From NCBI RefSeq assembly GCF_005404945.1, contig NZ_BJDG01000016.1, positions 1-64,000 of the forward strand: a stretch of 64,000 nt of DNA. The letters run 5' to 3'. The notes under the pieces were generated by a model. The model ran no database searches, was not told where the DNA came from, and saw nothing but the letters and a program-made list of their open reading frames with translations. This DNA comes from Lactiplantibacillus pingfangensis (GTDB lineage: Bacteria; Bacillota; Bacilli; Lactobacillales; Lactobacillaceae). Shown in pieces: positions 9,954-55,864 of this stretch; within the stretch, counting starts at the first letter, position 1, and every line of letters begins with the position of its first letter. The translations under genes were made by a program, and so were the position numbers.

Positions 9954-10221
9954 TGTGGAAACAGCTCGCATAAGTTTTGCCCATCCCCAAACTATGCACA
10001 GGCTTATCGACAAAATGACAGCCTGTGATTTTGTTTTCCACAGGCACTATTTCAGCTGTGCATAACTCTCCGTATCGTTATTAAACCGGGCTTGGTTTTA
10101 AACTGCTCGTTGTGTATAACTTGTCAAAAAATAACTTCAGCTGGCTTTTTAAACATCCTGTGGATAACACTAAAAACAGGCTGTGATTTATTTTAACATC
10201 TCTTTGTCCACTTGTGGAAAA
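9954..10221. other. oriC, upstream DnaA-box cluster
   Basis: This AT-rich stretch between rpmH and dnaA carries many DnaA boxes. One is perfect: TGTGGATAA at 10159-10167, the complement of TTATCCACA. Others are one or two bases off: 9954-9962, 9992-10000, 10004-10012, 10034-10042, 10057-10065, 10111-10119, 10204-10212 and 10213-10221. No protein-coding ORF here is credible. With the cluster after dnaA it forms a bipartite origin. Confidence 0.9.
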
Positions 10222-10276: not shown

Positions 10277-11638
10277 GTGCTGGAACGTAATGACTTATGG
10301 AATATCATTAAGTTCTCCATGAAAGGCGATCTTTCCTCGATCACTTTTCAGACGTTTGTCGAACCGGCGAAACCACTCCAACTCAATAATTTGCAGATGA
10401 CAATTGAAGTCCCAACTAAATTGCATCGTGATTACTGGGAAAATAACTTGGCCGCAAAATTTACAGATTATGCCTTCCAAGCTACTAATGAGCAGATTAC
10501 GCCAGTGATGATAACTGAAGAAGAACGTCAGCAGCTTACGAAAAAATCGCAAGCGACTACCGGTAACGTTGCATCTGGTGAAAACACCACTGCAACTACC
10601 CCCACATTTATGCGGGAAACGAAACTCAACCCAAAATATACATTTGAAAGCTTTGTCATTGGTAAAGGTAACCAAATGGCCCATGCGGCGGCGTTAGTCG
10701 TCTCTGAAGAACCAGGCACAATGTATAATCCGTTGTTTTTCTATGGGGGCGTCGGGTTAGGTAAGACCCACTTGATGCACGCTATTGGTAACAAATTATT
10801 AGAGACCGACCCGAATAGCAAGGTTAAATACGTGACGAGTGAAGCTTTCACCAATGATTTGATCAACGCCATCCAAACGGGGACGCAGGAATCATTTCGT
10901 GAAGAATACCGTAACGTTGATCTCCTGTTGGTCGATGATATTCAATTCTTTGCTAATAAGGAAGCAACCCAAGAAGAGTTCTTCCATACTTTCAATGCAC
11001 TTTATGAAGATGACAAACAAATCGTCCTCACTTCCGATCGGTTACCAAACGAGATTCCAAAATTACAAGATCGGTTAGTTTCACGGTTCAAATGGGGCTT
11101 ATCTGTTGATATTACGCCACCAGACCTAGAAACGCGGATCGCTATTTTGCGGAACAAGGCTGATTTAGAAGGCATCGACATCCCGGACGACACGTTAAGT
11201 TACATTGCGGGTCAAATTGATTCCAACGTCCGCGAACTTGAGGGTGCTTTGGCCCGAGTACAAGCCTATTCACGACTAAACAACTCAGCAATCACCACCA
11301 GTTTAGTCGCCGATGCCTTGAAGAGCCTTAATCTAAGCAACAAACTATCGGAAGTATCAATTCCGGTCATTCAGGAAAAAGTTGCCAAGTATTATCACGT
11401 CACTATGGCGGAGTTAAAGGGTAAAAAGCGTAATAAACAAATCGTCATGCCACGGCAGATCGCGATGTACTTATCGCGAGAATTAACCGATAGCTCATTA
11501 CCACGAATTGGCAATGAATTTGGCGGCAAAGATCACACCACGGTTATTCATGCCTATGATAAAATTGCAGCGGCCCTAAAAACTGACTTGGATCTTCAAC
11601 AAGCGATCGGCGATTTGAAAAGTCAGCTAAAAGCTTAG
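10277..11638 (+). CDS. dnaA: Chromosomal replication initiator protein DnaA
   Basis: This 453-residue AAA+ ATPase binds DnaA boxes, opens oriC and loads the helicase. Domain I (about 1-85) starts [18 protein letters not shown] variable linker rich in Thr follows. The AAA+ domain has Walker A GGVGLGKT at 157-164 and Walker [11 protein letters not shown]. The C-terminal DNA-binding domain carries the signature [12 protein letters not shown]. The start is GTG with AAAAGGGG upstream. It is flanked by DnaA boxes on both sides, as expected for autoregulation. Confidence 0.98.
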
Positions 11639-53079: not shown

Positions 53080-54342
53080 ATGGCAAATAACTCATTAGTT
53101 AAGGTCGCTGTAACTGCACTTGTTGCCGGCTTGTTAGGTGGCGGGGTCGCTTATGGGGGCATCAATTACTTCAGCAATAATAATGTCACAACGTCTTCGA
53201 CCAGTGTTCCAACCGGTTCTAACAAATCTGGGTCAACTTCCACGGCCAATGTGAAAGTTAATGTCAGTTCCCAAGCCACGAAAGTCTTTAAAGATAATAA
53301 GGCGGCCGTGGTCTCTGTAATCAATTTGCAAAAGCAAAGTACTTCTAGCGGTTGGAGCGGTATTTTAGGCGGTGCGGATGGGTCGAATGATGATAGCTCC
53401 AGTTCTAGTTCTTCTAGTAACAGCAAGTTACAAGAGTATAGCGAGGGTTCTGGGCTCATTTATAAGACTAGCGGCAATGCAGCCTATATTGTGACGAATA
53501 ATCACGTGGTGAGTGGTTCTAATGCCATTCAAGTGATTATGAGTAACGGGACCAAACTTTCTGCTAAATTAGTTGGGACGGATTCCGTCACTGATTTGGC
53601 CGTGTTGAAGATTAACTCGGCTAAAGTTACGAAGACTGCTAGCTTTGGTAATTCAGACAATATCGAAGTTGGTGAAAATGCGTTGGCGATTGGGTCGCCA
53701 CTTGGGTCCAATTACGCGACGACCTTAACGGAAGGCATCATTTCCGCTAAGAAACGGACGGTGGCCACGACGAATACATCTGGTCAACAAACTGGGTACG
53801 CCACAGTCATTCAAACGGATGCCGCGATTAACCCTGGGAACTCTGGTGGGCCACTCTTCAATTTAGCCGGCCAAGTGATTGGGATTAACTCCATGAAGCT
53901 ATCTTCTGATAGTTCTGGAACGAGCGTTGAAGGGATGGGCTTTGCCATTCCAAGTAACGAAGTGGTGAAGATCATCAATGAATTGGTTGCCAATGGCGAA
54001 GTCGTTCGACCAGCCTTGGGCGTTGCGACCTATAATCTTTCAAGTATTTCCGCGAGTGATCGTAAATCAGTCTTGAAGTTGCCAACGAGTGTGACTAGTG
54101 GTGTCGTGATTATGAAGACCTACTCAGGATCACCTGCCAAGGCCGCTGGATTAGCAAAATATGATGTGATTACCGAACTTGGTGGTAAGAAGATTACCAG
54201 TTTAGCCAACTTGCGGACCGCGTTGTATGAGCATAAAGTGAACGATACCGTGACAGTAAAGTATTATCATGAGGGGTCACTAAAGACCGCCAACATGAAG
54301 TTAACGGAAACTACCAAAACGTTAACAAAACAGTCCAATTAA
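53080..54342 (+). CDS. htrA: Serine protease HtrA (DegP/DegS family)
   Basis: This 420-residue surface protease degrades or refolds misfolded exported proteins. It has an N-terminal membrane anchor (about 6-30) and a Ser/Thr-rich linker, including a poly-Ser stretch near 105-113. The trypsin-like domain has triad His142 (NNHVV), Asp172 (TDLAVLKI) and Ser255 (GNSGGPL). One C-terminal PDZ domain follows (about 315-410). Its position after walJ is conserved in lactobacilli and streptococcal relatives. Translation may depend on the hairpin at 53061-53074. Confidence 0.97.
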   Translation: MANNSLVKVAVTALVAGLLGGGVAYGGINYFSNNNVTTSSTSVPTGSNKSGSTSTANVKVNVSSQATKVFKDNKAAVVSVINLQKQSTSSGWSGILGGADGSNDDSSSSSSSSNSKLQEYSEGSGLIYKTSGNAAYIVTNNHVVSGSNAIQVIMSNGTKLSAKLVGTDSVTDLAVLKINSAKVTKTASFGNSDNIEVGENALAIGSPLGSNYATTLTEGIISAKKRTVATTNTSGQQTGYATVIQTDAAINPGNSGGPLFNLAGQVIGINSMKLSSDSSGTSVEGMGFAIPSNEVVKIINELVANGEVVRPALGVATYNLSSISASDRKSVLKLPTSVTSGVVIMKTYSGSPAKAAGLAKYDVITELGGKKITSLANLRTALYEHKVNDTVTVKYYHEGSLKTANMKLTETTKTLTKQSN

Positions 54343-54359
54343 AGATTAAGCTTTCATGA

Positions 54360-54398
54360 GCGTGTTAGGATACCAACCGTGTCCTGGCGCGCTTTTTT
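54360..54398 (+). terminator. Intrinsic terminator of htrA
   Basis: GCGTGTTAGGATAC pairs with GTGTCCTGGCGCGC (wobble pairs) and ends in six T residues. Confidence 0.8.
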
Positions 54399-54541
54399 GT
54401 GTGTTGCTTGAAAAGCCGAAGACCGATTTTTCAAGCGACTATGATACTGGGCGATTATCAAGTTGCGGGTGAGAGAAACCGAACGAAGGGAGTCAAATCA
54501 CGAAAAACCATTTTTTACCAGTCGTGTGACTGGTGGCTAAT

Positions 54542-54855
54542 TGTGCATAACTTCGGGGATAACTTTCACCCTTGGTTGTGGTAATTTATTAACAAGCGAC
54601 AGGTCGGTAATTTGGCCTGTTTAGAAGTTATGCACAAGCAGGACTTTTGGCTGTGGATTAAATTTTTAAAATTTATTTTAATTGAATGAGTTTGTTGATA
54701 TAATGGGATTTATAACCGACTTCTACGAACAAATGTTGCTGTGGAAAACTGTGGATAAGTCGGAGAGAACTTGACAAAAGCGGTCTAAATAAATGTTGTG
54801 GCAAACATACGTTCAACACAATATATAGAGAAATTAGTTATGCACCTGTGGATAA
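54542..54855. other. DnaA-box cluster upstream of rlmH
   Basis: Seven DnaA boxes lie in 314 bp: 54542-54550, 54628-54636, 54652-54660, 54740-54748, 54750-54758, 54838-54846 and 54847-54855. Those at 54750 and 54847 are perfect (TGTGGATAA); most others differ by one base. They include two tight pairs and flank an AT-rich stretch (54658-54682) and a TATAAT (54699-54704). No gene is present. Confidence 0.88.
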
Positions 54856-54888
54856 CTTTGTTGATAACTTGTGTAAAGGTGGTAGATT

Positions 54889-55368
54889 ATGAACATCAAA
54901 ATTATCTGTGTCGGAAAATTAAAGGAAAAATACTTCAAACAGGGGATTGCGGAATATGCGAAGCGGATGAGTAAATTCGCAAAATTCCAAATTGTCGAAG
55001 TTCCCGATGAAAAGGCGCCCGAGTCATTAAGTAACGCAGAGATGGCTAATGTCATGCAAAAAGAAGGCGAACGGATTTTAGATAAGATCAAGGATCGCGA
55101 TTACGTCTATGCATTAGCGATATTAGGAAAAGAACGCTCAAGTGAAGAATTCGCCGCGGAAATTGATAAGTTAACGACGTACGGGCACAGCGATATTGAT
55201 TTTGTCATCGGCGGCTCGCTGGGGTTGGCGCCGGAAGTTCTGAAGCGTGCCGACACGCAGATTTCGTTTGGACGCTTTACGTTGCCACATCAGTTGATGC
55301 GGTTAGTGTTGACGGAGCAGGTTTATCGGGCGTTTATGATTAATATTGGGTCTCCGTACCACAAGTAG
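54889..55368 (+). CDS. rlmH: 23S rRNA pseudouridine-1915 N3-methyltransferase RlmH
   Basis: This 159-residue SPOUT methyltransferase acts on 23S rRNA helix 69. The knot region shows [11 protein letters not shown] and the C-terminus [22 protein letters not shown]...GSPYHK, all family hallmarks. AAAGGTGG precedes the ATG. It follows the DnaA-box cluster and marks the end of the conserved origin region. Confidence 0.98.
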
Positions 55369-55412: not shown

Positions 55413-55864
55413 AAATACCAGCGGGTCATACGTTTCGATATCATCCGATGCAACAAAGCGATGCGAGTATGATTCATGAACTCATTTGTAAGCTGCTATT
55501 GTATCAACCTCAGCTCAGCGATACAGAACGCTCGCTCTCTGAAATCATGGCAAGTTCTAGCGAAAATACTTTTGTTTGTGTAAGTGAAGAGCGTGTAGTT
55601 GGCTTTATCCACATCGCCATTTATCATAGCCTGTTAGTGGCACCACGCTGAATATCATGGGTATAACGGTTAGTTCTGATTTTCAGCATCTGGGTATCGG
55701 TCGCCGTTTAATTGAAATAGTTGAAGATGAAGCGCGGACGCATTCGATTCACAATATTCGGGATGAATTCTGGTATCGAGCGGGAAGGTGCACATCATTT
55801 CTGCCGGTCGTTAGTCTTTTCGATTGATAAGACTCAATTCAAATTATCTAAACAGCTTGACTAA
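55413..55864 (+). pseudogene. Decayed GNAT acetyltransferase
   Basis: Pieces of one GNAT gene appear in different frames. The first is FRYHPMQQSDASMIHELI...VVGFIHIAIYHSLL and hits a stop at 55651. Then ITVSSDFQHLGIGRRLIEIVEDEA carries the acetyl-CoA motif, and the end is GIEREGAHHFCRSLVFSIDKTQFKL in another frame. The likely original start reads ATA just after GAGGAG, suggesting a mutated ATG. At least two frameshifts make a working protein unlikely. It resembles aminoglycoside-type acetyltransferase relatives. Confidence 0.8.

Follow-up and report, generated by a model that had tools for sequence, protein, structure and literature searches.

A cluster of DnaA boxes in front of rlmH, conserved in Lactobacillales and in many other Bacilli, probably takes part in the timing of DNA replication as an independent element

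The DNA analysed is a stretch of 64,000 nucleotides from Lactiplantibacillus pingfangensis (contig NZ_BJDG01000016.1), here called the window, in which the gap between the terminator of an htrA-type serine protease gene and rlmH contains seven DnaA boxes that differ from TTATCCACA at no more than one position, two of them perfect (54542-54867). The cluster lies about 43-44 kb from oriC, dnaA starting at position 10277, and the RlmH encoded next to it shares 99% identity with its L. nangangensis counterpart. The features of the locus, preceded by the two parts of oriC that served for comparison, are the following.

10004-10221, no strand: oriC part 1, DnaA boxes upstream of dnaA
11639-11770, no strand: oriC part 2, the dnaA-dnaN region with its boxes and DnaA-trio runs
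53080-54342, plus strand: htrA-type serine protease (Trypsin_2 and PDZ), the upstream neighbour
54358-54401, plus strand: terminator-like hairpin after htrA (2 overlapping sites; shuffles mean 0.5, sd 0.7)
54542-54550, minus strand: DnaA box TTATGCACA, at -347 from the rlmH ATG; position unchanged in 20 of the 21 genus genomes, shifted by 1 bp in the remaining one
54554-54562, minus strand: weak box TTATCCCCG, 2 mismatches, 12 bp start to start from the box at 54542
54628-54636, plus strand: DnaA box TTATGCACA, at -261; the sole strong plus-strand box
54652-54660, minus strand: DnaA box TAATCCACA, at -237, 24 bp from the plus-strand box at 54628
54655-54700 (approximate limits), no strand: AT-rich tract with a promoter-like motif, TGATATAAT, at its end
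54740-54748, minus strand: DnaA box TTTTCCACA, at -149; at most one mismatch in part of the genus
54750-54758, minus strand: perfect DnaA box TTATCCACA, at -139; all columns identical in 21 genomes
54793-54824, plus strand: inverted repeat (hairpin) inside the cluster
54838-54846, plus strand: weak box TTATGCACC, 2 mismatches, abutting the box at 54847
54847-54855, minus strand: perfect DnaA box TTATCCACA, at -42; all columns identical in 21 genomes
54859-54867, minus strand: DnaA box TTATCAACA, at -30, 12 bp start to start from the box at 54847
54889-55368, plus strand: rlmH, 23S rRNA methyltransferase (PF02590)

A preliminary description of this DNA had counted seven boxes in 314 bp, two perfect, and had called the cluster as dense as oriC. 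Both counts stand, but only six of the boxes lie within 54542-54855 and the seventh falls just beyond; likewise, the number of boxes equals that of oriC but their density does not, with seven in 326 bp compared to six (at most one mismatch) in about 220 bp upstream of dnaA and five in about 90 bp between dnaA and dnaN. When 54542-54888 was shuffled 5000 times with its dinucleotide content preserved, a mean of 0.17 boxes was obtained (sd 0.41, maximum 3), and the remainder of the window, three clusters excluded, holds 12 boxes in 63.3 kb. When all 142 occurrences of TTATNCACA in the whole draft assembly were considered, the four that fall within 326 bp at this locus form its densest TTATNCACA cluster, followed by 326-bp places with three each, one of which is located upstream of dnaA.

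Elsewhere in this genome (G000), TTATCCACA occurs 48 times, compared to 10 times for a reversed control pattern. Three TTATNCACA boxes are found within a long ORF, presumably carB-like, on contig C29 (29837-29956; L251), with a pair just after the ORF (31489/31567). After rlmH, at 55448-55830, lies what by eye resembles an acetyltransferase gene interrupted by a frame change; the piece of 67 amino acids at its start gave no Pfam match and carries a perfect DnaA box at 55605.

Within Lactiplantibacillus, the box sites at -347, -261, -139 and -42 from the rlmH start are kept within 1 bp in all 21 genomes searched, the shift of 1 bp affecting two of the four sites in a single genome, and the -139 and -42 boxes are invariant. 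Identity in the alignment of these genomes amounts to 0.95 in the box columns, 0.79 in the spacers and 0.64 in the left part of the intergenic region, and a single gap column occurs inside the cluster compared to nine to its left. Absence of the boxes from sister species had been named beforehand as an outcome that would count against the site; the boxes are kept and the idea survives. The AT-rich tract described beside them is present and partly kept in the genus, but not conserved in the other genera aligned.

To follow the cluster beyond the genus, we used 228 rlmH loci, one per genome, which form a non-random set picked partly by best E-value and partly by our own choice, and scored a cluster where at least three boxes occurred in the 450 bp upstream of rlmH. 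By this measure, it is present in 121 of the 142 Lactobacillales loci examined (8 of 9 families) and, among these, in 84 of 90 Lactobacillaceae loci (31 of 36 genera), family and genus counts being counts of non-independent events. Upstream of rlmH, the Lactobacillales loci have 11.5 boxes per kb, compared to 0.68 in their remaining sequence. In the other Bacilli, 42/86 loci from 14/35 families carry a cluster, with 6.4 boxes per kb upstream of rlmH versus 0.32 elsewhere in the loci; it is missing from the remaining 44, and whole families are without it among the loci seen (e.g. f12, f14, f15, f21, f30 and f33). Outside Bacilli, where 47 genomes gave a hit, none of the 28 loci examined had three boxes. 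In a set of named loci that partly overlaps the 228, 69 of 80 carry a cluster, including those of L. plantarum, Pediococcus acidilactici, Levilactobacillus, Listeria ilorinensis, Enterococcus thailandicus and several Bacillus, and the 11 without one belong to Lacticaseibacillus (five), Lapidilactobacillus (one), Paenibacillus (two) and Enterococcus (three).

Between genera and families the spacers can no longer be aligned, yet the boxes remain in register. Across genera, the start-to-start spacing of same-strand boxes peaks at 12 bp, which corresponds to a gap of 3 bp between boxes, and then at 21 and 33 bp, and a spacing of 23-24 bp recurs for opposed plus and minus boxes. Of the 465 pairs that can be formed from 31 Lactobacillaceae genera, 47 share four or more boxes in register (mean of 2.0 under the null, no more than 7 in 30 runs), and between families this holds for 75 of 2772 pairs (null mean 14.2, maximum 23), the null in both cases being a uniform random placement of boxes that models neither helical phasing nor descent. 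A fixed arrangement of DnaA boxes is thus found at the cluster. In PMC11317965, E. coli DnaA is described as favouring box pairs that are 2-3 bp apart.

The inverted repeat inside the cluster consists of AATAAAT, a stem, a loop, a second stem and TAG, and it is found in several Lactobacillaceae genera with paired changes. Among 15 hand-picked sequences, 85.6% of the cells are paired with 12 cells changed on both sides, a level reached in none of 500 shuffles, and four pairs are changed on both sides, which was equalled in 71 of 500 shuffles of the same 15 sequences. No match to the repeat (54793-54824) was found in Rfam. In some species its core reads GAAC-N4-GTTC, which we take to be similar to a Firmicute LexA box.

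Of 21 Lactobacillales genomes without a cluster at rlmH, 16 were followed (G292, G252, G334, G025 and G067 were left out). Ten of them (G241, G122, G344, G080, G302, G088, G299, G024, G150 and G201) keep seven to nine boxes within 450 bp directly after htrA. In seven of these ten (G080, G302, G088, G299, G024, G201 and G122) the boxes lie between convergent genes, htrA on one side and trkA or queT on the other; since the latter is on the opposite strand, the cluster fronts neither gene. In G080 and G302 an antisense ORF of 110 amino acids was seen there, for which Pfam gave no match. The box geometry of the window was matched better than at random in six of the ten (G080, G302, G088, G299, G024 and G150; P at most 0.035 of 200) and was not recovered in G122, G344, G201 and G241, so the fixed arrangement extends to part of the separated clusters. 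The other six genomes (G264, G332, G284, G248, G233 and G187) lack a cluster both at rlmH and in the 6 kb that follow walJ, and none was found after walJ in G321 and G368, for which the walJ side was the only one searched. Conversely, 68 of 125 loci in which no htrA or metallo-hydrolase motif was seen upstream still carry a cluster at rlmH. In G299, two full rlmH genes were observed (C1:1621478-1621951 and 1770083-1770556), the second 2.3 kb beyond the separated cluster.

These arrangements led us to reject both the proposal that the cluster always travels with rlmH, as clusters follow htrA where rlmH lacks boxes, and the proposal that it always stays with htrA, as many loci have a cluster without an htrA motif upstream. 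The distance to dnaA varies as well. In 58 of 75 relatives no more than 120 kb separate rlmH from dnaA; rlmH and cluster are found 208-392 kb from dnaA in several genomes, and clusters can lie 200-430 kb from it. In family f5 (e.g. G024, G080, G088 and G201), rlmH and the separated cluster are 221-428 kb from dnaA and not 20-100 kb, suggesting that the origin region of this family is rearranged. A cluster is present in 47 of the 58 loci within 120 kb compared to 7 of the 17 beyond (Fisher p 0.004). As the correlation of distance with presence is -0.22 (Spearman, p 0.054) and phylogeny is uncontrolled, distance was not used as proof of a rule for the presence of the cluster. With clusters after htrA without rlmH, clusters at rlmH without an htrA motif and a variable distance to dnaA, the element is tied to neither gene.

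The reading that we favour, and hold to be somewhat probable, is that of an autonomous intergenic DnaA-binding element that would be the positional counterpart of the extra-oriC cluster upstream of yydA, the rlmH of Bacillus subtilis, and would act by restraining initiation. DnaA would bind the array cooperatively, through paired boxes with a 3-bp gap and helically phased boxes; duplicated soon after initiation, the site would take DnaA away from oriC and thereby delay the next initiation. The cluster would thus probably help to time DNA replication as an element in its own right, and where it stands at rlmH, an additional, minor part in adjusting transcription is possible. The B. subtilis cluster is attributed to Okumura et al. 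(2012) in citing papers and is DnaA binding region 8 of Smith and Grossman (2015; PMC4447404), where the region upstream of yydA, with seven boxes, ranks among the eight strongest DnaA-binding regions in vitro, with a Kd of 0.16 uM for ATP-DnaA and 0.33 uM with ADP. The preliminary description had drawn this parallel, and the paper bears it out; its further proposal of a conserved site for DnaA titration or regulation that would match the yydA cluster is supported, at the level of sequence, by position, conservation and geometry. Both clusters are intergenic, have about seven boxes upstream of an rlmH orthologue, and lie outside oriC in the oriC-proximal part of the chromosome. The one described here differs in its place in the htrA-rlmH gap at 43 kb from oriC, in being known from sequence only, in its genus-conserved box geometry and in its persistence without rlmH in some relatives. 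According to PMC5295017 and PMC13220808, removal of six B. subtilis clusters together causes early initiation, and the former adds that no single cluster was shown to matter much. The last statement counts against the favoured reading, as do the 44 other Bacilli loci that lack a cluster at rlmH, the six of 16 followed genomes with none at either place, and the match of geometry in only six of the ten separated clusters. In addition, a pure titration site would not need a conserved geometry, and one located 200-430 kb from dnaA would be duplicated later.

In the literature searched, which left subscription papers mostly out of reach, we did not find a description of the wider conservation of the cluster, of its geometry or of its independence from rlmH, nor a paper joining the DnaA box with rlmH or orfX; given this reach, no priority is claimed.

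Control of rlmH, also put forward in the preliminary description, is rather unlikely to be the main function. It would entail DnaA-dependent regulation of the promoter of rlmH and its operon by boxes around and downstream of that promoter, coupling rRNA methylation to replication. Speaking for it are the location of the cluster directly upstream of rlmH despite varied upstream neighbours (the 68 of 125 loci above), its presence where rlmH is 208-392 kb from dnaA, the TGATATAAT motif that 20 of the 21 genus genomes have within the cluster, and a review (PMC8203912) that counts yyzF-yydABCD among the direct regulatory targets of DnaA in B. subtilis. The motif was not reported by a promoter scan, and a sigma-70 scan, with 2 sites versus 1.4 expected, says nothing either way. 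Against control of rlmH, this promoter-like motif is not conserved across genera. Moreover, in ten of the 16 genomes that lack a cluster at rlmH, one is still found behind htrA, and in seven of these it is flanked by convergent genes and precedes no annotated-looking gene. Since clusters are retained even where no boxes precede rlmH, their conservation must have some reason other than, or besides, control of this gene; as a second role such control is plausible, but the clusters between convergent genes cannot be accounted for in this way.

A more active role is conceivable. E. coli datA, DARS1 and DARS2 are intergenic DnaA-box arrays outside oriC in which the arrangement of the boxes may matter, as it may here. 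That the cluster is a Bacilli counterpart of datA or DARS, in which a fixed array would assemble DnaA into a particular complex and alter its nucleotide state rather than merely bind it, strikes us as quite unlikely. We likewise give little weight to the broader proposal that the walJ-htrA/rlmH junction of many Bacilli is a DnaA platform of fixed geometry acting on DnaA itself, a Gram-positive functional analogue of datA/DARS with rlmH just its usual neighbour; such a platform would work by nucleotide exchange or hydrolysis, or by handing a DnaA complex to oriC. It is the sharing of spacing, and not only of box number, in the genus and family pairs above the null that leaves such a role open, and whether B. 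subtilis possesses regulators balancing ADP- and ATP-DnaA is given as unknown in a 2026 review (PMC13220808). The same text states that B. subtilis lacks IHF, datA and DARS, a difference from E. coli, and cooperative binding alone could select for spacing. The null, moreover, is uniform and takes no account of helical phasing or phylogeny.

Use of the cluster as a reserve origin, also raised in the preliminary description, or as an alternative one is very improbable. In its favour are a box number equal to that of oriC and the nearby AT-rich tract, but this tract is not conserved between genera, so that no AT-rich candidate unwinding region is shared beyond the genus. The dnaA-dnaN region of the window has two runs of four DnaA-trios, compared to none in 54340-54890, and in 20 genomes such runs were found in 18 dnaA-dnaN regions versus 5 rlmH regions (16 versus 1 by a strict rule; scan lengths 700 and 450 bp); of 163 rlmH clusters, 24 have a run (strict, 7). 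GC skew changes sign only near dnaA and stays positive from there through 54.8 kb, without a change at the cluster. As trios mark the oriC regions but not the cluster and the skew does not flip, the cluster gives no sign of an origin, and the otherwise similar oriC of the same genome, alike in number and type of DnaA boxes, has both trio runs and a skew flip. For B. subtilis, PMC11019786 judges the use of alternative origins unlikely.

That the boxes cluster by chance, or are kept merely because the species are close, is hardly credible: the genus spacers are fairly conserved too (0.79), but boxes persist across genera and families with unalignable spacers, including 31 of 36 Lactobacillaceae genera, and the shuffle tests speak against chance.

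What is known of DnaA-binding DNA outside oriC in Firmicutes comes mostly from B. subtilis, in which each cluster alone has little effect. A cluster that occupies one position in Lactobacillaceae, in further Lactobacillales and in many other Bacilli, with spacing that is shared and with cases in which it is retained without the neighbouring gene, singles out one site for study. It makes testable whether initiation in Bacilli, organisms said to lack the E. coli systems, is timed by passive titration or by an active site that would regulate DnaA.
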